Shown here in pieces: positions 26,954 to 50,217 of a DNA stretch of 64,000 nucleotides. Source of the DNA: Luteimonas sp. FCS-9 (lineage in GTDB: Bacteria > Pseudomonadota > Gammaproteobacteria > Xanthomonadales > Xanthomonadaceae); the NCBI RefSeq assembly GCF_001014645.1, contig NZ_LASZ01000006.1, positions 124,001-188,000 of the forward strand, read 5' to 3'. A program made the position numbers and the translations under genes. A model generated the notes under the pieces. It worked only from the letters and a program-made list of their open reading frames with translations, searched no databases and was not told the origin of the DNA. How positions within the stretch are numbered: position 1 is the stretch's first letter; every line of letters begins with the position of its first letter.

Positions 26954-28092
26954 GCACGGTCGGCATCCTGGGCGGCGGCCAGCTCGCACGTATGCTGGCG
27001 CTGGCCGGGCATCCGCTGGGGCTGCGCTTCGTCGTGCTCGACGGTGCGGCCGATGCCTGCGCGGGGCAGTGCGCGCCGCTGCTGGTGGGCGGCTACGACG
27101 ATCCCGCGGCGCTGGCCGAGCTGGCCGGCCGTGTCGACGTGGCGACGTTCGACTTCGAGAACGTGCCGGCCGACGGCGCGCGGCGACTCGCCGCGGACGT
27201 GCCGGTGTTCCCCAATCCCGACGCGCTGGCGCTGACCCAGGACCGGCTCGCCGAGAAGACGCTGTTCCGCGAGCTCGGCATCCCGGTGCCGGACTTCGCC
27301 GACATCGCCACGCGCGAGGCGCTCGACGCCGCGGTCGCGCGCCTGGGCATGCCCTGCATCCTCAAGACGCGGCGGCTCGGCTACGACGGCAAGGGCCAGT
27401 TCCGGATCCGCGAGGCGGCCGACGTCGACGCGGCCTGGGACGCGCTCGGTGCGCAGGCGCAGGCGACCGGGCTGATCCTCGAGGGCTTCGTCGCGTTCGA
27501 GCGCGAGCTCAGCGTGATCGCGGTGCGCGGGCGCGACGGCGCGTTTCGCACCTGGCCGCTGACCGAGAACCGCCACGTCGACGGCGTGCTGTCGACGAGC
27601 CTGGCGCCGGCCGACGCCGACGCGGCGACGGTGCGCACCGCGACCGCGCATGCCCGTGCGATTGCCGAACGCCTGGACTACGTCGGCGTGTTCGCGCTGG
27701 AGCTGTTCTGCCGCGGCGACGAGCTGCTCGCCAACGAACTCGCGCCGCGCGTGCACAACTCCGGCCACTGGACGATCGAGGGCGCGGAGACCTCGCAGTT
27801 CGAGAACCACCTGCGCGCGGTGCTCGGCCTGCCGCTGGGCGAGACCGCGCCGCGCGGCGTGTCGTGCATGCTCAACTGGCTCGGCGCGATGCCCGACGCC
27901 GCGGCCGCACTGGCGGTGCCCGGCGTGCACTGGCACGACTACGGCAAGCAGCCGCGCGACGGCCGCAAGGTCGGCCACGCGACGCTGCGCGCCGAAGACG
28001 CCGAGACGCTGGCGCAACGGCTCGAGGCCCTCGGGCACGCACTCGGCCGGCAGGCCCAGATCGCGCCGGTGGTCGCGCGGCTGGCCGGCTGA
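26950..28092 (+). CDS. purK: N5-carboxyaminoimidazole ribonucleotide synthase
   Basis: A 380-residue ATP-grasp enzyme that carboxylates AIR to N5-CAIR using ATP and bicarbonate, the step before PurE. The N-terminus VGILGGGQLARMLALAGHPLGLR is the typical PurK opening. ATP-grasp features include LKTRRLGYDGKGQFRI and the metal-binding ELFCRGDELLANELAPRVHNSGHWTIEG stretch, of which NELAPRVHNSGH is diagnostic. It forms an operon with purE. A short tandem repeat follows directly after the stop codon. Confidence 0.96.
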   Translation: MSTVGILGGGQLARMLALAGHPLGLRFVVLDGAADACAGQCAPLLVGGYDDPAALAELAGRVDVATFDFENVPADGARRLAADVPVFPNPDALALTQDRLAEKTLFRELGIPVPDFADIATREALDAAVARLGMPCILKTRRLGYDGKGQFRIREAADVDAAWDALGAQAQATGLILEGFVAFERELSVIAVRGRDGAFRTWPLTENRHVDGVLSTSLAPADADAATVRTATAHARAIAERLDYVGVFALELFCRGDELLANELAPRVHNSGHWTIEGAETSQFENHLRAVLGLPLGETAPRGVSCMLNWLGAMPDAAAALAVPGVHWHDYGKQPRDGRKVGHATLRAEDAETLAQRLEALGHALGRQAQIAPVVARLAG

Positions 28093-28110
28093 GCGATCGA
28101 CAGATCGACC

Positions 28111-28158
28111 GATTGAGCGATTGGGCGATTGGGCGATTGAGCGATTGAGCGATTGAGC
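28111..28158. repeat. 8-bp tandem repeat after purK
   Basis: Six adjacent copies of GATTGAGC (two of them GATTGGGC) are preceded by degenerate copies from about 28092 (GAGCGATCGACAGATCGACC). It is a microsatellite-like array directly downstream of purK, not part of any gene I can support. Confidence 0.9.
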
Positions 28159-28206
28159 GGCACCGCGGGCGTGCGATCTCCATCGCAGGCGCGCGCCTGC
28201 CCCTCC

Positions 28207-28702
28207 GTAGGAGCGCGCTCGCGCGCGAGAGGACGTCAAGGAAAGTCCCTCGCGCGCAAGCGCGCTCCTACGGTGATCGGACTGCATGTGCCGCCGCGCG
28301 GGGCGGTCGGTGGTCGGATGTTCCGCATGTGCCTCCGCGCGGGGCGGAAGTGGATGGCGGCCTGCGTAAGCATCTGGATCGCCAGTGCGCGTCCTGATCG
28401 CCGGTGCGCGCCCTCACCGTGGCGCGCTTGCGCGCCTGCTCCGTAGGAGCGCGCTTGCGCGCGAGAGGCCGTCAAGGAAAGTCCCTCGCGCGCAAGCGCG
28501 CTCCTACGGTGATCGGACCGCATGTGCCGTCGCGCGGGGCGGACGGTGGAGGGCGGTCTGCGTACGCATCTGGATCGCCGGCACGCGTCCTGATCGCCGA
28601 TGCGCCCCTCACCGTGGCGCGCTTGCGCGCAGGCTCCGCAGGAGCGCGCTCGCGCGCGAGAGGCCGTCAAGGGAAGTCCCTCGCGCGCGAGCGCGCTCCT
28701 AC
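28207..28702. repeat. Threefold array of REP pairs with a repeated spacer
   Basis: Three nearly identical inverted REP pairs lie at 28207-28271, 28443-28507 and 28638-28702. They share the loop sequence GTCAAGGAAAGTCC (GTCAAGGGAAGTCC in the third). The spacers 28272-28442 and 28508-28637 are themselves related (GGTGATCGGA, GCATGTGCC, GCGCGGGGCGG, CATCTGGATCGCC, CCTCACCGTGGCGCGC); the first contains an internal duplication. No gene is seen in 28093-28698. The last REP head supplies the stop codon of the next minus-strand gene. Confidence 0.88.
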
Positions 28703-29169
28703 GGATGGTCCTGCGGCGGCGGTGGAGCGGACGTCGCCCCAGGCGACCGGTCGACCAGGACCCGGAACGTGACCGCGACCAGCGCCCAGCACAGGCCGAA
28801 CGACAGCGGCACCACCGGCCGTTCGACGATGGTCTCGAACAGGTAGGCGATCGCGTAGCCCGGGCCGTAGCCGAGGAACCCGGCGACGTGGACGACCGCC
28901 CACAGCACGAGCGCCAGCGCGAACCACACGAGCGCGTACGTCGACGTCGCGACGCGCCTGCGCAGCAGTGCGTGCGCCGGCAGGCCGATCAGCACCATCG
29001 CGGCGTAGCCCAGCGCGAGCCCGATGACTGCGCCCATGGCCATGCGCTGGCCGCGGCCGAGTTGTCCGAGGATCGGGTCAGAGACCGGGAAGAACAGTCC
29101 GGCGTACACGGCCGCGAACGCGGCGGCCCACAGCGGTGCGATCGCGATCGCGACCAGGGTGCGTTTCAC
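28699..29169 (-). CDS. Hypothetical small membrane protein, GTG start
   Basis: A 156-residue protein with four predicted membrane helices (about residues 3-25, 42-65, 75-100 and 105-140) and a proline-rich C-terminal tail (SAPPPPQDHP). I do not recognise the family. A GTG start at 29169 is proposed because a GAGGA ribosome site lies 6-10 nt upstream on the minus strand and no ATG fits the hydrophobic N-terminus. It is downstream of hmuV on the same strand. The TAG stop (28701-28699) lies inside the GTAG head of a REP. Between it and hmuV (29170-29335) is a purine-rich low-complexity stretch with imperfect GACGGGATG-like repeats. Confidence 0.7.
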   Translation of the reverse strand: MKRTLVAIAIAPLWAAAFAAVYAGLFFPVSDPILGQLGRGQRMAMGAVIGLALGYAAMVLIGLPAHALLRRRVATSTYALVWFALALVLWAVVHVAGFLGYGPGYAIAYLFETIVERPVVPLSFGLCWALVAVTFRVLVDRSPGATSAPPPPQDHP

Positions 29170-39694: not shown

Positions 39695-40906
39695 ATGTCC
39701 GCTGTCCCCCTTGCGTCCCCCCGCGTGCCCGGCCTGTCGGCGCTGGTGTTCACCGCGCTCGCGGGGACCATGGCGATGATGGCGTTCGTCGCCGTCGTCG
39801 GTCCGGTGGTGCGCCTGCTGGGCCTGGCCGAGTGGCATGCGGGGCTGTCGGTGACGGCCGCCGGCGTGCTGTGGATGCTGTCGGCGCGCCGCTGGGGCGC
39901 GCTCAGCGACCGCATCGGGCGCCGTCGCGTGCTGCTCGCCGGCCTGGTCGGCTATGCGGTGGTCTACATCGCGATGGCGGCGTTCGTGGACCTGGCGTTG
40001 CGGCATCCGCCCGCGGTGCTGCTGTCGGTCGTCGTGCTGGTCGCCACCCGCGCGCTCGTCGGGCTGTTCTATGCGGCCGTGCCGCCGACCGCCGCGGCGC
40101 TGATCGCCGACGCGGTGCCGCCGGGCGGGCGCGGCGCGATGATGGCGCGGCTGGGCAGCGCCAACGCGATCGGCATGGTGCTGGGGCCGGCCGCGGCCGG
40201 CTGGATCGCTTACCGGAGCATCGCGCTGACGCTGTACCTGGCGGCGGCGCTGCCGCTGCTGTCGCTGGCGGTGCTGTGGTGGCGGCTGCCCGAGGCCCCG
40301 GCCGCGACGGCGCCGCGTCCGGGCCCGCGGCCGGCGATGGCGGTCTCCGACCGCCGGCTGCGCCTGCCGGTTTATGCGGTGTTCGCGGCGATGGTCTCGG
40401 TGACGATCGCCCAGGTCGTCGTCGGCTTCTTCGCGATCGACCGGCTCGGCCTGTCGCCGGCCGACGGCGCGCGCGCGGCCGGGATGTCGCTGACCGCGGT
40501 CGGGCTGGGCCTGGTCTGCGCCCAGGCGCTGGTGATGCGGCTGCGCACGGTGCCGCCGGCGCGCTGGATCGCGATCGGCGCGTTGGTCTCGGCCGCCGGC
40601 TTCGCGTCGTCGTCGCTGGTCGCCGTGCAATGGCAACTGCTGCTGGCCTACGGCGTCGCGGCGTTCGGCATGGGCTTCGTGTTCCCCTCGTTCCAGGCGC
40701 TGGCGGCCGATTCGGTCGAGGCGCACGAGCAGGGCGCGGCGGCCGGCACGGTCGCCTCGGTCCAGGGCATGGGCATGGTCGTGGGCCCGTTGCTGGGCAC
40801 GCTGCTCTACCGCTGGTCGCCCAGCGCGCCGTACCTGCTGGTCGGCGCGGTGCTGCTGGTGCTGGCGCTTGCCGCGGCGCTGCATCCGCGCGAGGCGGCG
40901 CGATGA
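39695..40906 (+). CDS. MFS transporter, probable siderophore exporter (EntS-like role)
   Basis: A 403-residue major facilitator with 12 predicted helices. The MFS loop 2-3 motif is seen as RRWGALSDRIGRRRVLL, and GMGFVFPSFQALAADSV lies in the second half. It is first in the catecholate biosynthesis operon, and its stop overlaps the entC start by ATGA. By position it is the likely exporter of the finished siderophore, as EntS is in E. coli. Sequence alone does not fix the substrate; a general drug-efflux MFS is the alternative. Confidence 0.78.
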   Translation: MSAVPLASPRVPGLSALVFTALAGTMAMMAFVAVVGPVVRLLGLAEWHAGLSVTAAGVLWMLSARRWGALSDRIGRRRVLLAGLVGYAVVYIAMAAFVDLALRHPPAVLLSVVVLVATRALVGLFYAAVPPTAAALIADAVPPGGRGAMMARLGSANAIGMVLGPAAAGWIAYRSIALTLYLAAALPLLSLAVLWWRLPEAPAATAPRPGPRPAMAVSDRRLRLPVYAVFAAMVSVTIAQVVVGFFAIDRLGLSPADGARAAGMSLTAVGLGLVCAQALVMRLRTVPPARWIAIGALVSAAGFASSSLVAVQWQLLLAYGVAAFGMGFVFPSFQALAADSVEAHEQGAAAGTVASVQGMGMVVGPLLGTLLYRWSPSAPYLLVGAVLLVLALAAALHPREAAR

Positions 40907-42087
40907 CCGAGTCGCCGCGCATGCCGATCCCGGAGGCCGGACCGCCGGAAGCCGACGGCGCGCCCGCGGCGACCTGGTTCGCGCTGCAGGGACCGGGCCG
41001 TCCGGTGTCCGCGGCGGGCCGGCTGGCCTCGCTGCCGCCCGGCCCGGCGGCCACGCTGGGCGCCCGGGTGGCGGCGTTCTTCGCAGCCGCGCGCGGCGGC
41101 CCGCCGTTGCTGGTGGGCGCGCTGCCGTTCGACCCGCACGCGGGCGACGCGCTGTACCAGCCCGCGCGCGTGGCGGCGACCGTCGACGCGGCGCCGATGT
41201 CGGTGTGGCCGCCGCCGCTGCGCGGCACCGCCGCCGAGCCGCCGGCCGAGGCGTATGCGGCCGCGGTCGCGCGCGGCGTTGCCCGGCTGCGCGATTCGGA
41301 CGATGCCGCGGCGCTGCGCAAGGTCGTGCTCGCGCGCAGCCTGCGGGTGGACGCCGATGCGCCGATCGATCCGCTGGCGCTGGCGCTGCGCCTGGGCACC
41401 GACGCCAGCGTGACCGCGTACGTCGCCCCGCTGCCGGTCGCGGCCGGCGAGGCGCCGGCGTGGCTGGTCGGCGCGACGCCGGAGCTGCTGGTGTCGCGGC
41501 GCGGCCTGGCGGTCGTCTCGCATCCGCTGGCCGGCTCGGCGCGGCGCGCGCGGGATCCGGACGAGGACGCACGTGCCGCGCAGGCATTGCTGGCCTCGGC
41601 CAAGGACCACGACGAGCACCGCCACGTCGTCGAGGCGATCGTCGACGCGCTCGCGCCGCTGTGCAGCCGGCTGCAGGCGCCGCCGAAGCCGGCGCTGCAC
41701 GCGACCGCGACGATGTGGCACCTGGGCACGCGGATCGAGGGCACGCTGAAGGATCCGTCGGTGTCCTCGGCCGCGCTCGCCGGCCTGCTGCATCCCACGC
41801 CCGCGGTCTGCGGCACGCCGCGCGAGGCCGCGCTGGCGGCGATCCGCGCGCTCGAGCCGGTGGACCGCGGCTTCTACGCCGGTGCCGTGGGCTGGACCGA
41901 CGCGCAGGGCGACGGCGACTGGTACGTGTCGATCCGCTGCGCGCGCGTGCAGGGCCGCACGATGCGCCTGTTCGCCGGTGCGGGTATCGTGGCCGGCTCG
42001 CAGCCGGCGCTCGAGGTCGACGAGACCGCCGCCAAGTTCCGCGCGCTGCTCGATGCGCTGGGCATCGACGACGTGCGCGCCGCCTGA
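40903..42087 (+). CDS. entC: Isochorismate synthase
   Basis: A 394-residue chorismate-utilising enzyme that turns chorismate into isochorismate, the first step to 2,3-dihydroxybenzoate. The conserved C-terminal chorismate-binding domain begins near residue 120 ([29 protein letters not shown]). It shows [40 protein letters not shown], the glutamates of [18 protein letters not shown] and [22 protein letters not shown]. It is translationally coupled to the exporter gene and lies 16 nt before entE. Length matches EntC/DhbC (about 390). Confidence 0.93.
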
Positions 42088-42103: not shown

Positions 42104-43750
42104 ATGAGCGACACCCCCGCACCGCAGCGCCTGCCGCTGCGCCAGGTCTGGCCCGACGACCGGGTCGCGCACTACCGCGCGGCCGGCCACTGGCGCGGCG
42201 AGACCTTCCCGGGCTTCCTGCGCGATCGCGCGCAGCGCTTTTCCGGCGACCTTGCCGTGGTCGGCGGCGCAGTGCGCTGGACCTACGCGCAGCTGTGGGA
42301 CGAGGCCGAGCGCATCGCCGCCGGGCTGCTGGCGCAGGGCCTGGCGCCGGGCGACCGTGTGGTCGTGCAGCTGGGCAACATCCCGGAGTTCGTCGCGGTG
42401 GTCTGCGCGCTGTTCCGCGCGCAGTTGGTCCCGGTCTACGCGTTGCCGGCGCACCGGCTGACCGAGGTCGCGCATTTCGCGCGCAAGGCCGAGGCCGTCG
42501 CCTACGTCTGCGCGGAGAAGTACGAAGCCTTCGATTACCGCACGCTGGCGCGCGAGCTGCAGCGCGAGGTGCCGGCGGTGCGCCACGTGTTCGTGGTCGG
42601 CGACGGCGGGGAATTCGTACCGGTCGCCGGGCTCGACGGCGATCGCGCCGCGCTGCCGGGCGACCCCGACCCGCAGTCGGTCGCGTTCCTGCAGATCTCC
42701 GGCGGCAGCACCGGGCTGTCGAAGCTGATCCCGCGCACGCACGACGACTACATCTACAGCTTCCGCGCCAGCAACGATCTGTGCGGCATCGACCGCGACA
42801 GTGTGTACATGGTCGCGCTGCCGGCCGCGCACAATTTCCCGATGAGCTCGCCGGGGTTCTTCGGCGCGCTGTACGCCGGCGCGTGCGTGGTGCTGAGCCC
42901 GGGGCCGGGGCCGGACGTGGCGTTTCCGCTGATCGCGCGCGAGCGCGTGACCTGCGTCGGCCTGGTGCCGCCGCTGGCGCTGCTGTGGGCCGACGCCGCG
43001 GCGAAGACCGCGCACGACCTGTCGAGCCTGCGGGTGGTGCAGGTCGGCGGCGCGAAGCTGGTGCCCGAGGCCGCGCGCCGGGTCATCGCGGGGCTGGGCT
43101 GCACGCTGCAGCAGGTGTTCGGCATGGCCGAGGGGTTGGTCAACTACACCCGGCTCGGCGATCCGGAGGAGGTCGTGGTCCGGACGCAGGGGCGGCCGAT
43201 CAGTCCCGACGACGAGGTGCTGATCGTCGACGATCAGGGGGCGCCGGTGCCGGACGGCACCACGGGGCACCTGCTCGCGCGCGGGCCGTACACGATCCGC
43301 GCGTACCACAACGACCCGGCGGCGAATGCGCGGTCGTTCACCGACGACGGCTGGTACCGCACCGGCGACATGGTCCAGCGCACCGCGGACGGCAACCTGG
43401 TGGTGCAGGGGCGGGCGACCGACCACATCAACCGGGCGGGCGAGAAGATTTCGGCCGAGGAGATCGAGGACCATCTGCTCGCGCATCCGCAGGTGTTCGA
43501 TGCGGCGGTGGTGTCGATTCCAGACGATTTCCTCGGCGAGCGCAGCTGTGCGTTCGTGATCCCGGGCGAGGCGCGGCCGCGACCTGCCGAGTTGAAGGCC
43601 TGGGTGCGTGGGCGGGGGCTGGCGGCGTTCAAGGTGCCGGACCAGATCGTGTTCGTCGATGCGTTCGGCACGACGGCGGTGGGCAAGGTCAGCCGTCGTG
43701 AGCTGCGCGCGCAGTTACGCGCGCGGTTCCTGGCTGAGCAGGGTGCATGA
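42104..43750 (+). CDS. entE: 2,3-dihydroxybenzoate-AMP ligase
   Basis: A 548-residue stand-alone adenylation enzyme that activates 2,3-DHB as the adenylate and loads it onto an aryl carrier protein. Adenylation motifs are [18 protein letters not shown] (A3), the aromatic-acid pocket region [20 protein letters not shown] (A4, with the asparagine typical of DHB/salicylate enzymes), [12 protein letters not shown] (A5), DGWYRTGDM (A7) and the C-terminal lysine in [13 protein letters not shown] (A10). A GAGGA ribosome site precedes the ATG. A 451-nt stretch with repeats separates it from entB. Confidence 0.95.
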
Positions 43751-43811
43751 TGACGTGTGTGCGCGAGTTGAGCGCTATCTCCGTAAGTGAGGAGCCGTGC
43801 GCTTCTGCGTT

Positions 43812-43996
43812 GGTTGGGAACCGGCTTGCCGGCCCGCAGCCGCTTGTCTCTCGGTCAGGGCATCGTGTCCTGGCTCGGGAGCGCGCCATCGGTCACCTGT
43901 CCGTGCCTGCTGCTTTAGATGGGCAGCGGCCTGCTGGCCGGCAGCTGCTTGTCCCTCGGTCAGGGCATCCTGCCCTGACTCGGGCGCGCGCCATCC
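43812..43996. repeat. Imperfect direct repeat in the entE-entB gap
   Basis: Two copies of about 78 nt (43812-43890 and 43918-43996; period 106) share CTTGTC(T/C)CTCGGTCAGGGCATC and GCTCGGG/ACTCGGG plus GCGCGCCATC. The 43751-44201 stretch has no gene I can support; a 150-codon open frame covers it, but its peptide is repetitive and unlike the coding regions around it. The entB promoter may lie in the distal part (44060-44200), where GGATAATGG and TTGCGAATGAGG occur. Confidence 0.75.
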
Positions 43997-44201
43997 CTGG
44001 CGCGCTTGGCGCGGCCACCGGCCACCAGTCCGCTGCCGCGGACGTTTCGATGGTGCCTTCGGATAATGGTTGCATGTGCGCGGTCGGGAAGGTCGCTCTG
44101 GCCCCCTGCGAAGCCGTCTCCGAAACAGATCGTCCGGCGTTTGCGAATGAGGCGAGTGCCGGGCGTGTGGTCACGATTGCAAATGGATTGAGCGAGTAGA
44201 C

Positions 44202-44837
44202 ATGGGCCTTCCGACGATTCCTGCATACCCGTTGCCGACTGCGGCCGAACTGCCGGCCGCGCGTGGTCAGTGGGTGCCCGAGACCGGCCGCATCGCGCTG
44301 CTGGTGCACGACATGCAGCGTTATTTCCTGGCGGCCTACGAGGCGCAGGCCGCGCCGATCGCGCCGGCGATCGCCCACCTCGCGCGGCTGCTGGCGCATG
44401 CGCGCAGCCGGGGCATTCCGGTATTCTACACCGCGCAGCGCGGCAATCAGGATCGGCGCGATCGTGGGCTGCAGGCCGATCTGTGGGGACCGGGCATGCG
44501 TGCGACGCCCGAGCATGAGGCGATCGTCGATGCGCTGGCGCCGGTCGATGGCGATCACGTGCTGGTCAAGCACCGCTACAGCGCGTTCCAGCGCAGCAAT
44601 CTCGAGACGTTGATGCGGGCGCGCGGTCGCGACCAGCTGCTGATCACGGGCGTCTACGCGCACATCGGCGTGCTCTCGACGGCGACCGAGGCGTTCCAGC
44701 GCGACATCCAGACGTTCGTCGCCGCCGATGCCGTCGCCGACTTCACCCGCGCCGACCACGACATTGCGCTGCACTGGATCGCCCGCACCTGCGGCGTTCC
44801 GCTGACCACCGACCGGATCCTGGAGCTGTTGCGATGA
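44202..44837 (+). CDS. entB: Isochorismatase (2,3-dihydro-2,3-dihydroxybenzoate-forming), without carrier domain
   Basis: A 211-residue hydrolase that removes pyruvate from isochorismate. It matches the N-terminal isochorismatase domain of EntB: ALLVHDMQRYFL with the catalytic aspartate, VLVKHRYSAFQRSNLE with the catalytic lysine, and LLITGVYAHIGVLSTATEAFQRDI. E. coli EntB is about 285 residues because an aryl carrier domain is fused at its C-terminus. Here the protein ends after the hydrolase domain, and the carrier is a separate gene overlapping by ATGA. Confidence 0.94.
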   Translation: MGLPTIPAYPLPTAAELPAARGQWVPETGRIALLVHDMQRYFLAAYEAQAAPIAPAIAHLARLLAHARSRGIPVFYTAQRGNQDRRDRGLQADLWGPGMRATPEHEAIVDALAPVDGDHVLVKHRYSAFQRSNLETLMRARGRDQLLITGVYAHIGVLSTATEAFQRDIQTFVAADAVADFTRADHDIALHWIARTCGVPLTTDRILELLR

Positions 44838-45079
44838 GCGACCCCCTGACCCTGGCGCGCATGCGCGCCGACATCGCCCGGCAACTGGGCGAGGCACCCG
44901 AGGACATCGGCGACGACGACGACCTGATGGATCTGGGCCTTGACTCGATGCGCGTGCTCGGATTGGTGATGAAGTGGGGCGAGTCCGGCCTGCCGCTGGA
45001 GTTCTCGCACCTGGCCGAGCACACCACGCTGGCCGGCTGGTGGCGCGTGGTGCAGGACCTGCAGCAGAAGATCGCCTGA
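44834..45079 (+). CDS. Stand-alone aryl carrier protein
   Basis: An 81-residue phosphopantetheine carrier with the attachment motif DLMDLGLDSMRVLGL (serine of LGLDS). It carries the 2,3-DHB loaded by EntE to the condensation domain of EntF. It corresponds to the C-terminal ArCP domain of E. coli EntB but is separately encoded, sharing ATGA with entB and one base with entF (TGATG). The continuous coupling on both sides suggests a recent split or an ancestral unfused state. A phosphopantetheinyl transferase to activate it is not encoded in the window. Confidence 0.92.
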   Translation: MSDPLTLARMRADIARQLGEAPEDIGDDDDLMDLGLDSMRVLGLVMKWGESGLPLEFSHLAEHTTLAGWWRVVQDLQQKIA

Positions 45080-48000
45080 TGGCCGAGGCGGTGGGCGCAC
45101 CCGCGGACGCAGCGGCCGGCGACTGGCCGCTGACCCAGGCGCAGTCCGGCCTGTGGTACGCGCAGCGGCTGGCGCCGGACAACCCGGCGTTCAACACCGC
45201 ACATGCGCTGTGGATCGAAGGCGCGCTGGACGTGGATGCGTTCGTGCGCGCGGCCGGGCAGGCCGCGGCCGAGGCGCCGGCGCTGTCGCTGCGCATGCGC
45301 GATGCTGCCGATGGACCGCGGATGCGCGTCGATCCCGACCACCTGCCGCGGCTGGCGGTCGTCGACCTGTCGCAGGCGACCGAGCCCGAAGTCGCCGCGC
45401 GGGTGGCGATGGCGCGCGACCGCGACACGCCGGTCGATCCGGCACGCGACCGGCTCGCGCTGCAGCGGCTGTACGTGCTCGGCGGCGACCGCTTCGTCTG
45501 GTACCTGCGCGTGCACCACCTGGCCACCGACGGCTACGGCATGGCGCTGCTGACCGAGCGCGCACTGGCGCTGTACGGCGCTGCGCGCGGCGGGTCCGAC
45601 GCGGGCACGCCGTTCGCGCCGTTCGAGGGCGCGATCGCCGAGGACGCGGCCTACGCCGCGTCGGAGAAATGCAGCAAGGACGCGGCCTACTGGCGCGAGA
45701 CCCTGGCCGGCCTGCCGGCGGTGTCCGGCCTGGGCGCGGGGTTCGCGCCGGCCGCGCACGGTTGCCATCGCCTGCACATCGCGCTCGATGCGGCGCTGCG
45801 GGCCGACCTGCTCGCGCTGGCGCAGCGGCTCGAACAGCCCTGGCCGGACGTGCTGACCGCGCTGGCCGCCGAGTACTGTCGGCGCATGGCCGGGCAGGCC
45901 GAAGCGGTGGTCGGGGTGCCGTACATGGGCCGGCTGGGCAGCGCGACGGCGCGCGTGCCGGCGATGGTCATGAACGTGCTGCCGCTGCGCGTGCCGGCGA
46001 TGCCGGGCGCATCGCTGGCCGGGTTCGTGCAGGCGATCGCGCGCGCGCTGGTGCGCGGGCGGCGCCACGGTCGCTACCGCGGCGAGCAGCTGCGCCGCGA
46101 CCTCGGGCTGATCGGCGGCCAGCGCCGCCTGCACGGCCCGCTGGTCAACGTGCAGCCGTTCTACCGGCCGCCGCGGCTGCATGGCGCGCAGCTGCGGCTG
46201 GAGATCCTCGGCACCGGGCCGATCGACGACGTGACGATCGGCTTCCGCGGCGACGGCGCGACCGCGCTGGACCTGGAGTTCGAGGCCAATCCCGACCTGT
46301 ACACGACCGCCGACATCGCCGCGCATGCGCAGCGCCTGCAGGCGTTCCTCGTCGCGGCCTGTACGGCCGACGGCATCGACGACATCCCGCTCGCCACGCC
46401 GGACGAGGCGCGGCGCGCGCTGCTCGACTTCAACGCGACCGAACACCCGCTGCCCGACACCACGCTGGCCGCGCTGATCGAGGCGGCGATGGCGGCGACG
46501 CCGGACGCGCCGGCGCTGGCCTTCGGCGACACGACGTTGACCTACGCCCAGCTCGACCGCCGCACCCGCGCGCTGGCGCGTGCGCTGCAGGCGCGCGGGC
46601 TCGGACGCGACGGCGTCGTCGCGGTCGCGCTGCCGCGCTCGCTGGACCTGGTGATCGCGCTGGTCGCCGTGCTGCGCGCCGGCGGCGCCTACCTGCCGCT
46701 CGACCTCGCGCACCCGGACGAGCGGCTGGCCCGCATCCTGCGCTCGGCGCGGCCGCTCTGCGTGCTGGCCGCACGCGACACCGCGCACCGGTGGCCCGGT
46801 GACGTGCCGCTGTTCTCGCCGGACGACTGGCCTGCCGTCAGCGTGACCGAGACAGGAATCGAGCCCTTCCCCGCGAGCGGGCGAGGGTGGGGTGGGGGCG
46901 AGCACCGCGGCAAGCCCGGCCCCCACCCGTCGCCTTCGGCGCCGACCTCCCCCGCAAGCGGGGGAGGTGGGGTTTCCCGGATGCTGGCGACGAGCGTGGG
47001 AATCGAGCCCTCCCCCGCGCGCGGGGGAGGGTTGGGTGGGGGCGAACGCCGCGACGCGCCCGGCCCTCACCCTTCGCCTACGGCGCCGACCTCCCCCGCA
47101 GGTGGGGGAGGTGGGGTTTCCCGGCTGCTGGCGACGACCGCGGGAATCGAGCCCTCCCCCGCGAGCGGGGGAGGGCTGGGTGGGGGCGAACGCGCCGACG
47201 CGCCGTTCGCGTCGCCCGCGCGCCCCGGCGACGCGGCGTACGTGATCTACACCTCGGGCTCGACCGGCGAGCCGAAGGGCGTCGTCGTCGAGCATCGGGC
47301 GATCGTCAACCGCCTGGAATGGATGCGTACGCATTACGGCATCGATGCGTCCGACCGCATCCTGCAGAAGACCCCGGCGACATTCGACGTCTCGGTCTGG
47401 GAGTTCTTCCTGCCGCTGATCGCCGGCGCCGTGCTCGATGTCGCGCCGCCGGATGCGCATCGCGACCCGGTCGCGCTGGCGCGCATCATCCGCGCGCGCG
47501 GCATCACCACGCTGCATTTCGTGCCGTCGATGCTCGCGGCGTTCCTGGCCGCGCCCGACGCCGAAGGTCTGGCCGTGCGCCGGGTGTTCTGCAGCGGCGA
47601 GGCGCTCGACGCCGACCTGCGCGACCGCTTCCACCGCAGCGTGCGTGCCGAGCTGCACAATCTCTACGGGCCGACCGAGGCCGCGGTCGACGTGAGCTTC
47701 TGGCCTGCCTCGGCCGAAGACGCGTCGCGCCCGGTGCCGATCGGCTTCCCGGTCTGGAACACGCGGCTGTACGTGCTCGACGCGCGCATGCGGCCGTTGC
47801 CGCCGGGCGTGGTCGGCGACCTGTACCTGGGTGGCGTGCAGCTCGCGCGCGGCTATCTCGGCCGCGACGACCTGACCGCCGAGCGCTTCATCGACGACCC
47901 GCACCGGCCCGGCGAACGCCTCTACCGCACCGGCGACCTCGCGCGCTGGCGCGAGGACGGCGCGGTCGAGTTCCTCGGCCGCAGCGACCACCAGGTCAAG

Positions 48001-49353
48001 CTGCGCGGGCTGCGCATCGAACTGGGCGAGATCGAGGCGGCGATCGTCGCGAGCGGGCAGGCCGCGCAGGCGGCGGTGATCGTGCGCGAGGATCGCGCCG
48101 GCGACCGGCGCCTGGTCGGCTACCTGCAGCCGACCGATGCGGATGCGTTCGATGCCGAGGCGCTGCGCGCGGCCGTCGCCGCGCAGGTGCCCGACTACAT
48201 GGTCCCGGCCGCGTTCGTCGCGCTGGACGCCTGGCCGGTCACCGCGAACGGCAAGCTCGACCGCGACGCACTGCCGGCGCCCGCGTTCGACGCCGGTGTG
48301 TTCGTGGCGCCGCGCACGCCGACCGAGGCTGCGGTCGCCGCGCTGTTCGCGCAGGCGCTGGGGGTCGAGCGCGTCGGCGGCGACGGCGACTTCTTCGCGC
48401 TGGGCGGCGATTCGCTGTCCGCGGTGCACCTGCTGCTGGCGATCCAGCGCCGCTTCGGCCGCGATCCGGGCCTGGGCGCGCTGTTCGCCACCCCGACCGT
48501 GGCCGGCATCGCGGCCTTGCTGGATGCCGATGACGCCGCGCCCGACCACGGCCTCGGCCCGACGGTCGCGCTGGCGCGCGGCGACGCGGCACGCCAGCGC
48601 GCCCCCTTGTTCGTCGTGCATCCGGCCGGCGGCATCGCGTGGTGCTACCGGGATCTGGCGCGTGCGCTGCAGCCGCGGCGCGACGTGCATGGCCTGCAGT
48701 CGCCGGCACTGGACCTGGCGCAGCCGCTGCCCGGCAGCATCGACGCACTCGCCGACGACTACGCCCGCCGCGTGGCGGCGCTGCAGCCGGGCGGCCCGCT
48801 GCACCTGCTCGGCTGGTCGGTCGGCGGCATCCTCGCCCAGGCGATGGCGGTGCGGCTGCGCGCGCTCGGCCGCGAGGTCGGCGTCCTCGCGCTGCTCGAC
48901 GCCTATCCCAGCGAGTGCTGGCGCGCCGAGCCCGAACCCGATGCCGTCGATGCGCTGCGCGCGCTGCTGGCGATCGCCGGCTACGATCCGGACCGCTATC
49001 CCGACCTGCGCAGCCGCGAGGCGATCGTCGACTTCCTGCGTCGCGGCGACAGCGCGCTCGGCAACCTGCCCGGGCGTGTGCTCGACGGCGTCGTGCGCGC
49101 GGTCGTCGACACCAACCGCCTCGTGCGCCTGCACCACCACGCGCGCTACGACGGCACGCTGCTGCACGTGCGCGCCGGCCTCGACCACGTCGACCGGCCG
49201 CAGTTGCAGTCGGCGCTGTGGCAGGCGCACGCGGCGCGGGTCGAGGCGGTCGAGCTGCCGTTCCGGCACGGCGAACTGACCGGCCGCGACGCGACCGCGG
49301 CGATCGCGCCGCTGCTCGACGCGCGGCTGGCGGCGTTCGACCGGCCCCTGTAG
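45079..49353 (+). CDS. entF: Enterobactin-type nonribosomal peptide synthetase (C-A-T-TE), with internal repeat insertion
   Basis: A 1424-residue synthetase. The condensation domain (about 10-440) has HHLATDG at residues 146-152. The adenylation domain (about 455-1070) has A3 [11 protein letters not shown] from residue 724 and A4 FDVSVWEFF, with the first specificity aspartate at 770. The thiolation serine in LGGDSL is residue 1112. The thioesterase serine in GWSVGG is residue 1247. Reading the pocket positions by the usual alignment gives D-V-W-H-F-S-L-V-D-K, the serine code of EntF. This predicts joining of DHB to serine and trilactone release. Residues about 593-709 are translated palindromic repeats. 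The TAG stop lies in a REP head. Confidence 0.93.
46855..47204. repeat. 144-bp palindromic repeat, 2.4 tandem copies, inside the entF A domain
   Basis: Copies begin at 46855, 46999 and 47143 (the last ends near 47204). The period of 144 nt is exactly 48 codons, so the frame is kept. Each full unit has two hairpins: CCCTCCCCCG-type arms (46864-46887, 47008-47031, 47152-47175) and ACCTCCCCCGC-type arms (46945-46968, 47089-47112). They resemble intergenic palindromes (arms CTCCC(C/T)CGC) common in proteobacteria. The encoded unit starts GIEPSPA and ends GGGGVSR(M/L)LAT. Confidence 0.95.
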
Positions 49354-49420
49354 GCGCGCGCTTGCGCGCGATGCGTTTTTCGGCGCTGCACGCAAAGAAC
49401 ATCGCGCGCTCGCGCGCGGA
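49350..49420. repeat. REP elements between entF and entA
   Basis: A complete REP (GTAGGCGCGCGC head, 49350-49371) and a partial inverted mate (about 49403-49420, ATCGCGCGCTCGCGCGCG) fill most of the 93-nt gap. The entF stop codon TAG (49351-49353) is part of the first REP head. Confidence 0.85.
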
Positions 49421-49446
49421 CGAATCCACATCGCGGAGAGATCGAC

Positions 49447-50217
49447 ATGCAACTCACGGGTTTCGAAGGCAGGACCGCGCTGGTCACCGGCGCCGCCGGC
49501 GGCATCGGCGCGGCGGTCGTGCGACTGCTGCGCGCCAGCGGCGCGACGGTGGTCGCGACCGACCTGCAGGTGCCGAACATCGCCGATGCGTCCGGCGTCG
49601 CGCCGATGCATGCGTTCGCGCTCGACGTGACCGATGCGGCGGCGGTCGATGCGCTCGTCGCGCGCGTCGAGGCGGACCTCGGGCCGATCGACCTCGCCGC
49701 GCACGTCGCCGGCGTGCTGTCGACGACGCCGGTGCTCGAGACCAGCGACGCCGAGTGGCGGCGTACGTTCGCGGTCAACGCCGACGGCGTGTTCCATGTC
49801 GGCCGGGCGCTCGCCCGGGCCATGGCGCCGCGCCGGCGCGGTGCGCTGGTCGTCGTGGGTTCCAACGCCGCAGGCATCCCGCGGCATGCGATGTCGGCCT
49901 ACGCCGCGTCGAAGGCCGCGGCGACGATGTTCGTGCGCTGCCTGGGCCTCGAGCTTGCGCCGCTGGGCATCCGCTGCAACCTCGTCGCGCCGGGCTCCAC
50001 GCGCACGCCGATGCAGACCGGCATGTGGGCCGATGCCGACGGCGAGGCGAGGGTGATCGCCGGCAGCCTGGAGACGTTCAAGAGCGGGATCCCGCTCGGC
50101 AAGCTCGCCGAGCCGGTCGACGTGGCGCACGCCGCGATGTTCCTGCTGTCCGAGCAGGCCGGCCACGTCGCGATGCAGGACCTGTACGTCGACGGCGGGG
50201 CGACGCTGCGCGGCTGA
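49447..50217 (+). CDS. entA: 2,3-dihydro-2,3-dihydroxybenzoate dehydrogenase
   Basis: A 256-residue short-chain dehydrogenase that oxidises 2,3-dihydro-2,3-DHB to 2,3-dihydroxybenzoate with NAD+. The cofactor motif is [13 protein letters not shown], followed by HVAGV and the active-site YAASKAA with an upstream serine region (VVGSNAAG). The C-terminus [10 protein letters not shown] is typical. By context it is the EntA of the cluster and completes the DHB pathway with entC and entB. It is last on the plus strand and convergent with the pullulanase gene. A CCGCACGTGCGG palindrome lies in the 36-nt gap. Confidence 0.93.

Follow-up and report, generated by a model that had tools for sequence, protein, structure and literature searches.

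How does a tandem array of palindromes, drawn from a mostly non-coding repeat family, come to lie in frame within the adenylation (A) domain of a siderophore synthetase, and has the enzyme survived it? The question is raised by a gene in the window, the 64,000-nucleotide stretch of Luteimonas sp. FCS-9 analyzed here (contig NZ_LASZ01000006.1, positions 124,001 to 188,000). The window genome (3.95 Mb in 55 contigs) is designated G000, and other G numbers denote the genomes of relatives compared. The explanation developed below, which is very probably correct as a whole, is that a REP/BIME-like palindrome entered the loop between motifs A2 and A3 in a single ancestral event, later grew and shrank, and was tolerated.

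The host gene (45079..49353, + strand) encodes an EntF-like nonribosomal peptide synthetase (NRPS) of 1424 residues with C-A-T-TE organization, as assigned with Pfam and NCBIfam. Its Pfam families are Condensation, AMP-binding (in two stretches), AMP-binding_C, PP-binding and Thioesterase. The first-pass annotation had called the gene entF. This holds in that EntF is the best NCBIfam model; the match, at 884 bits, is under the equivalog cut-off of 2400. The gene also has the setting that defines EntF, a C-A-T-TE module within a DHB (catecholate) siderophore cluster. Other members of this cluster, all on the + strand, are a chorismate-binding, isochorismate-synthase-like enzyme (40903..42087, Pfam PF00425), a 2,3-dihydroxybenzoate-AMP ligase-like protein (42104..43750, NCBIfam TIGR02275, 676 bits against a cut-off of 723.55), an isochorismatase-like protein (44202..44837, Pfam PF00857), a stand-alone carrier protein (44834..45079, Pfam PF00550) and an EntA-like 2,3-dihydro-2,3-dihydroxybenzoate dehydrogenase (49447..50217, NCBIfam TIGR04316, above cut-off). 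The isochorismatase and carrier protein (44202-45079) are encoded by separate, overlapping genes; E. coli EntB is a fusion of the two. Another tandem repeat (105 bp x 1.9), one that also includes palindromic stretches, is found at 43795-43995, between the DHB-ligase-like and isochorismatase-like genes. Elsewhere in the window there is a 195-bp x 2.0 tandem repeat at 28323-28704, with an 8-bp x 8.8 array nearby at 28090-28159. An Rfam scan of 44000-50000 detected no family at E<=1.

Within the A domain, AGGAYLPLD (46678..46704, + strand) and YTSGSTGEP (47248..47274, + strand), located by sequence and codon frame, are taken to be the A2 and A3 motifs. Between them lies the in-frame palindromic array (46855..47204, + strand), for which Tandem Repeats Finder gives a period of 144, 2.4 copies, 89% matches, 0% indels and a score of 560. 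This agrees with the 2.4 copies of a 144-bp unit, starting at 46855, 46999 and 47143, that had been observed by inspection. The coding frame had also been said to resume into A3, and YTSGSTGEP is indeed read in frame after the array. An insertion of 117 residues had been proposed; as a net gain between A2 and A3 it amounts to 118 residues against array-free G014 (190 versus 72) and 113 against array-free G015 (190 versus 77).

Unit 1 (46855..46998, + strand) has hairpins at 46864-46887 and 46946-46967, unit 2 (46999..47142, + strand) at 47008-47031 and 47090-47111, and the partial unit 3 (47143..47204, + strand) at 47152-47175. Each full 144-bp unit thus contains a pair of short CTCCCCCGC-type hairpins, 20-24 nt in length and 81 nt apart, much as the first-pass annotation described; the description is amended in that hairpin 1 of unit 1 is the degenerate form CCCTTCCCCGCGAGCGGGCGAGGG, and that a third, longer stem, GGGTGGGGGC...GCCCCCACCC or close to that, lies between the two. 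The earlier statement that no frame contains a stop is correct for the three + frames and one - frame, and incorrect for the other two - frames, which contain one stop each. Openness of the array in all three + frames is by itself not very improbable, occurring in 220 of 20,000 base shuffles. At the 3' end of the array, GACGCGCC (47197..47204, + strand) occurs both inside the repeat and in the adjoining host sequence. It is present in array-free G015 as well, and is possibly a microhomology junction. A terminator or promoter role for the array was considered and rejected when simple consensus scans of 46700-47400 gave no sites.

A search of the genome for the 144-bp unit, suggested earlier as a check, identified a dispersed palindromic family, mostly in non-coding DNA. 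The unit has 62 matches in its own genome at E<=0.001, of which three are the array itself and some are one palindromic spot counted again on the opposite strand. There are 79 occurrences of the exact hairpin pattern (three in the array) and none of a reversed control pattern. With these numbers, the array is not a matter of chance. In the 13 Luteimonas genomes examined, hairpin counts were 121 in G025, 79 in G000, 61 each in G011 and G009, 17 each in G020 and G029, 14 in G008, 4 in G024, 1 in G015, and 0 in G014, G031, G017 and G023. Few of the copies are in a coding frame. By codon score, 3 of 70 hairpins outside entF in the window genome are in an in-frame coding context; the 70 come from a relaxed pattern applied to retrieved loci and cover part of the hairpins of the genome, 50 of the 79 exact-pattern places being among the matches listed. 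Comparable counts are 0 of 45 in retrieved G011 loci (among the matches listed, entF and E2 loci left out) and 0 of 14 in G008. The codon model used is small, having been trained on six window stretches, and can miss cases; one run flagged one of the two copies in the E2 gene discussed below, and a later run both.

A half-element, CCCTCCCCCGC-n-GCGGGGGAGGG-YYGGG(G)TGGGGGC with the base preceding CTCCCCC variable, fits 14 of 16 oriented copies, these 16 having been filtered from the 70 by requiring G-runs downstream. No constant GTAG/CGTC end tag is visible by eye in the same 16 filter-chosen copies; CGTC occurs elsewhere in the unit. The family shares with REP/BIME elements paired imperfect palindromes within 20-40 bp, and many dispersed copies with few in coding frames. 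A RAYT or transposase link was also considered and rejected; the draft genome has a single Y1_Tnp match, and no such hairpin occurs in its 3.2-kb locus. Dispersed copies (n=48, median 66 nt) are open in all three + frames in 47 cases, and on average 5.94 of their 6 frames are open, versus 4.92 in base shuffles. The element would therefore be pre-adapted to in-frame insertion.

How widely the array is shared was examined in 52 Luteimonas genomes, one per species (that of the window and 36 + 15 relatives). A close entF orthologue is found in 22 of these, and in four of the 22 (G000, G008, G011 and G025) the array occupies the same A2-A3 site. The A2-A3 distance, measured in 19 of the 22, is 213-231 nt in the 16 array-free genes, 351 nt in G008, 570 nt in G000 and 689 nt in G011. 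Alignment with related entF genes, another suggestion of the first-pass annotation, thus bears out a single site in four related species. The motif pattern failed on one motif each in G062 and G063, whose open frames, of 1404 and 1403 codons, correspond to the array-free length. Among 80 named EntF loci, the 67 that were readable have A2-A3 spacings of 69-99 aa; the 13 unreadable ones include two halves of Luteimonas sp. RC10. A record titled Bacillus subtilis (L074, JAHREJ010000010.1) encodes an EntF with 70% identity, over the best segment, to that of the window; it is possibly from a mislabelled or contaminated assembly.

The array forms a length series of about one unit (about 45 residues) in G008, 2.4 units in G000 and about 473 extra nt in G011. 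Unit spacings are 144,144 in G000, 63,144,144,63 in G011 and 144 in G025. The spacing keeps the frame in the window, in G008 and in the readable parts of G025. The array ends after hairpin 2 in G008 and within hairpin 1 in the other three. It had been suggested that copy number could vary between strains in steps of 48 residues. Length does differ between species, and the steps also include the 63-nt (21-codon) half-units of G011 and, in G008, one unit of about 45 residues. Could the array have been collapsed or invented by assembly at the repeat? Short-read assemblies break at repeats. Contigs C1 and C5 of the window genome both start inside the repeat, and in G025, where units lie on either side of a contig break, both contigs end in the array, in low-complexity junk sequence. 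Against this, the same site is occupied in four separate assemblies, of which G008 and G011 are single-contig, and the flanks run on at both array ends. With 17 differences over 144 positions, units 1 and 2 of the window can be told apart, which also argues against an artefact. Such an origin, named earlier as a possible refutation, is weakened by these observations and is extremely improbable.

The same element occurs in other genes. In the window genome, pyruvate dehydrogenase E2 (L165, G000:C17:62451-67503) has in-frame hairpin elements in both inter-lipoyl linkers, at about 2501-2560 and 2902-2970 of the locus. E2 was found in 49 of the 52 genomes and aligned for 24. By eye, the linker 1 element is present in all four entF carriers, and that of linker 2 in G000, G025 and G011 and absent from G008; no linker element was seen in the remaining 20 of the 24 aligned. 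A penicillin-amidase-family gene (L266, G000:C9:1-3674) has a palindrome-coded peptide in frame at about 1654-1674, directly before GSNNF, in a stretch that is presumably a spacer removed on maturation. VPLSP..R.RG repeat-like peptides occur at this site in G000, G025, G011, G035 and G024, among 10 genomes, and in G024 (L285) the peptide is present twice in tandem.

In a tree built from the region downstream of A3, the four carriers fall into one clade with support of 100/98, adjoined by array-free G014 and G015. Of its 23 rows, two are from Stenotrophomonas and 21 are Luteimonas orthologues, all of the 22 but G001, which was left out because its frame changes. In that genome (L025/L182) the match to entF, array-free, is split over two open frames, with the change near query residues 412-424 and no hairpin array there. 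From the clade, and from an identical site, orientation and starting frame, we infer a single entry in the common ancestor; the E2 linker 1 element common to all four species points the same way. Separate insertions at a hot spot, species by species, would better account for the different array edges and for synonymous distances, dS being 0.26 between G000 and array-free G014/G015 and 0.34-0.37 between G000 and the other carriers (0.20-0.37 among carriers overall). The amidase-family gene, in which peptides resembling the repeat recur at a single position across more distant species, also indicates that such hot spots may exist. On balance this alternative is unlikely. Beyond the array site, EntF of G014 and G015 (L174, L175) has 92-93% identity to that of the window, against 75% for E2 and 68-69% for the amidase. 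Since they are close in entF dS and far more distant than the carriers in the two other genes, siderophore genes have possibly been exchanged.

Given a single ancestral entry, the next question is whether the enzyme has survived. Among carriers, dN/dS is 0.033-0.098 in the 350 codons of the A domain that follow the array (0.155 for G014-G015, the array-free pair), 0.061-0.104 in the whole part downstream (0.161 for G014-G015) and 0.121-0.184 upstream (0.306 for G014-G015). The pairs compared share branches and hence are not independent. Judged by these ratios, the A domain beyond the array is under purifying selection among carriers. Each of the four carriers has all six A/T motifs that were checked, and the sequence record suggests that the enzyme survived the insertion, its activity presumably retained.

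The exception to an intact reading frame is G011. Here the frame differs on either side of the array (689 nt is not a multiple of three), so that entF (L172) is not one open frame; the change sits inside the last hairpin of the array. The E2 gene of the same genome (L214) has a second frame change, in the linker-2 hairpin. Both fall in hairpin C/G runs of a single-contig assembly, where sequencing error and real instability look alike; either the hairpins break frames or the G011 assembly errs at C/G runs. The G011 change is what would be expected of a pseudogene in progress, inactivated by the insertion. The dN/dS of 0.03-0.10 after the array, with G011 included and below that of G014-G015, and the complete set of motifs in four carriers make this very improbable. 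The combination proposed earlier as a refutation, relatives all lacking the repeat and an inactive entF, is not what is seen; there are four carriers under purifying selection, the G011 frame change notwithstanding. The first-pass proposal of a palindromic element in the A2-A3 loop, amplified in frame with selection on the enzyme not abolished, is supported by the family matches, the tree and dN/dS.

The insert itself evolves quite differently from its flanks. Array units have a pN/pS of 0.93 in the coding frame, and of 0.95 and 0.84 in the other two, and variable columns number 10, 13 and 11 at codon positions 1, 2 and 3. The sample is small (five full units from three species and 34 variable columns, with units of one array pooled with those of other species). 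Within it, similar variation at the three codon positions and a pN/pS of 0.93 indicate that the array peptide is not visibly constrained save for its open frame, which appears to be all that is selected. In an AlphaFold2 model from 47 aligned sequences, pLDDT falls below 50 in segments of at least three residues only at model residues 143-254 (46849..47184, + strand). The A domain is otherwise confident, with 383 of 620 residues at pLDDT >= 90, and the insert alone is predicted to be disordered. No additional Pfam family is detected in the protein, and with pLDDT < 50 the insert has no folded auxiliary domain in the model. The top Foldseek matches are EntF crystal structures (TMq 0.63, rmsd 14.3 across two subdomains), and the insert falls between EntF residues 574 and 593 of 5ja1. 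The mean share of the top residue is 0.21 just before the insert, 0.26 at its end and 1.0 at A3; by this measure, the A2-A3 loop is poorly conserved at the array site.

The array might instead be an exapted functional linker, with copy number under selection; its length would tune the A domain (in its dynamics, or in the docking of MbtH or the carrier), or its hairpins in the mRNA would pace translation. It has been kept in four species across dS 0.20-0.37, its length differs between species, and its predicted RNA folds are very stable (-91.1 kcal/mol for unit 2, z -3.3, beating 200 of 200 shuffles, and -255 kcal/mol over 380 nt, z -4.9). The lack of codon-level constraint in the array counts against a sequence-specific role; moreover, G008 retains only about one unit and the other measured orthologues have no array. 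The occurrence of similar insertions in unrelated linkers argues for tolerance. A linker function is accordingly improbable.

The preferred account, then, is one of tolerated entry and growth. Its source would be a composite, REP/BIME-like palindrome of a family dispersed in the Luteimonas lineage. This would have entered the variable A2-A3 loop of the synthetase in the common ancestor of the four species, and growth and shrinkage would have followed by recombination or slippage between near-identical hairpins. The insert would be tolerated because it is almost stop-free in every frame, comes in lengths divisible by three, and sits in a variable loop that accepts disorder. The unit (144), inter-hairpin distance (81) and half-unit (63) are all divisible by three, so that recombination between hairpins could alter length with the frame kept. 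The entF spacings are of common ancestry, which makes these multiples-of-three statistics weak; they reduce to two ancestral lengths, and luck alone would give this about 1 time in 9. In dispersed clusters of the window genome, 2 of 14 integer distances between neighboring hairpins are multiples of three; the full set of 20 distances includes six half-integers, as loop lengths differ, and neighbors are not all homologous intervals. A bolder reading makes the element a linker module that is frame-proof and amplifies itself, giving quantized length steps in several unrelated genes (entF, E2 in both lipoyl linkers, the penicillin-amidase-family gene) and reversible off-switching via occasional C/G-run changes such as those in two G011 genes. 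With steps of 48, 21 and 27 codons and nearly all frames open, protein length could be adjusted by hairpin-to-hairpin recombination. This reading has a low probability; if true, the repeat family would generate phase variation and different linker lengths throughout the genome.

Palindromes within genes are a known class, since Rickettsia RPE and intragenic REPs, encoding up to 82 aa, precede the present case as far as the available text of the source goes (PMC3733652). Rickettsia RPE and intragenic GTAG/CGTC REPs are described in such text as dispersed palindromes lying in frame within functional genes, some of them solvent-exposed (PMC3733652, PMC3767692), and in-gene palindrome clusters encoding 43-82 aa are described in Thauera and R. 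conorii (PMC3733652). By description, the Luteimonas palindromes are similar in being dispersed and in frame in a gene under selection (with the G011 exception). They differ from what these texts describe in being arranged in tandem, as 2.4 units that make up about 117 residues of an NRPS A domain, in having a unit number that varies between related species, and in that codon neutrality has been measured beside a constrained flank. BIME-2/REP clusters, in the available part of the report, are regular tandem arrays of a two-hairpin module, vary in length by genome, and are extragenic and linked to RAYT transposases (PMC2817692). The entF array resembles these as a tandem two-hairpin module differing in length between genomes; unlike them it is in frame within a gene, and the only Y1_Tnp locus is without the hairpin. 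The A domains of TioN and MarQ are interrupted by methyltransferase domains at a2-a3, a natural insertion site according to the accessible text (PMC11355689, PMC8949500). The entF insert also lies between a2 and a3; in contrast to those interruptions it is repeat-derived, has no Pfam domain and is predicted to be disordered. Enterobacterial RU elements are small repeats with open frames inside genes (PMC2759123). They belong to other hosts, and their abstract mentions no tandem amplification series of the kind found in the Luteimonas array (PMC2759123). In open-access titles and abstracts, with subscription papers mostly missing, no description was found of a copy-number series in an A domain with a neutral insert and a constrained host, and searches of such titles and abstracts for Luteimonas palindromes, or for NRPS A domains together with palindromes or tandem repeats, gave nothing on the entF array. 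In-frame palindromes and A2-A3 interruptions are known, then, and the copy-number series inside an A domain looks new.

What this locus provides is a natural series in which one palindrome is present in 0, about 1, 2.4 or more units, in a crystallographically well-known domain, with array-free relatives as controls. Such a series allows tests of the way in which intergenic palindromes invade coding sequence and expand there, and of the amount of disorder tolerated at A2-A3. The amount of disorder accepted at this site would also be useful to know for NRPS domain-insertion engineering.
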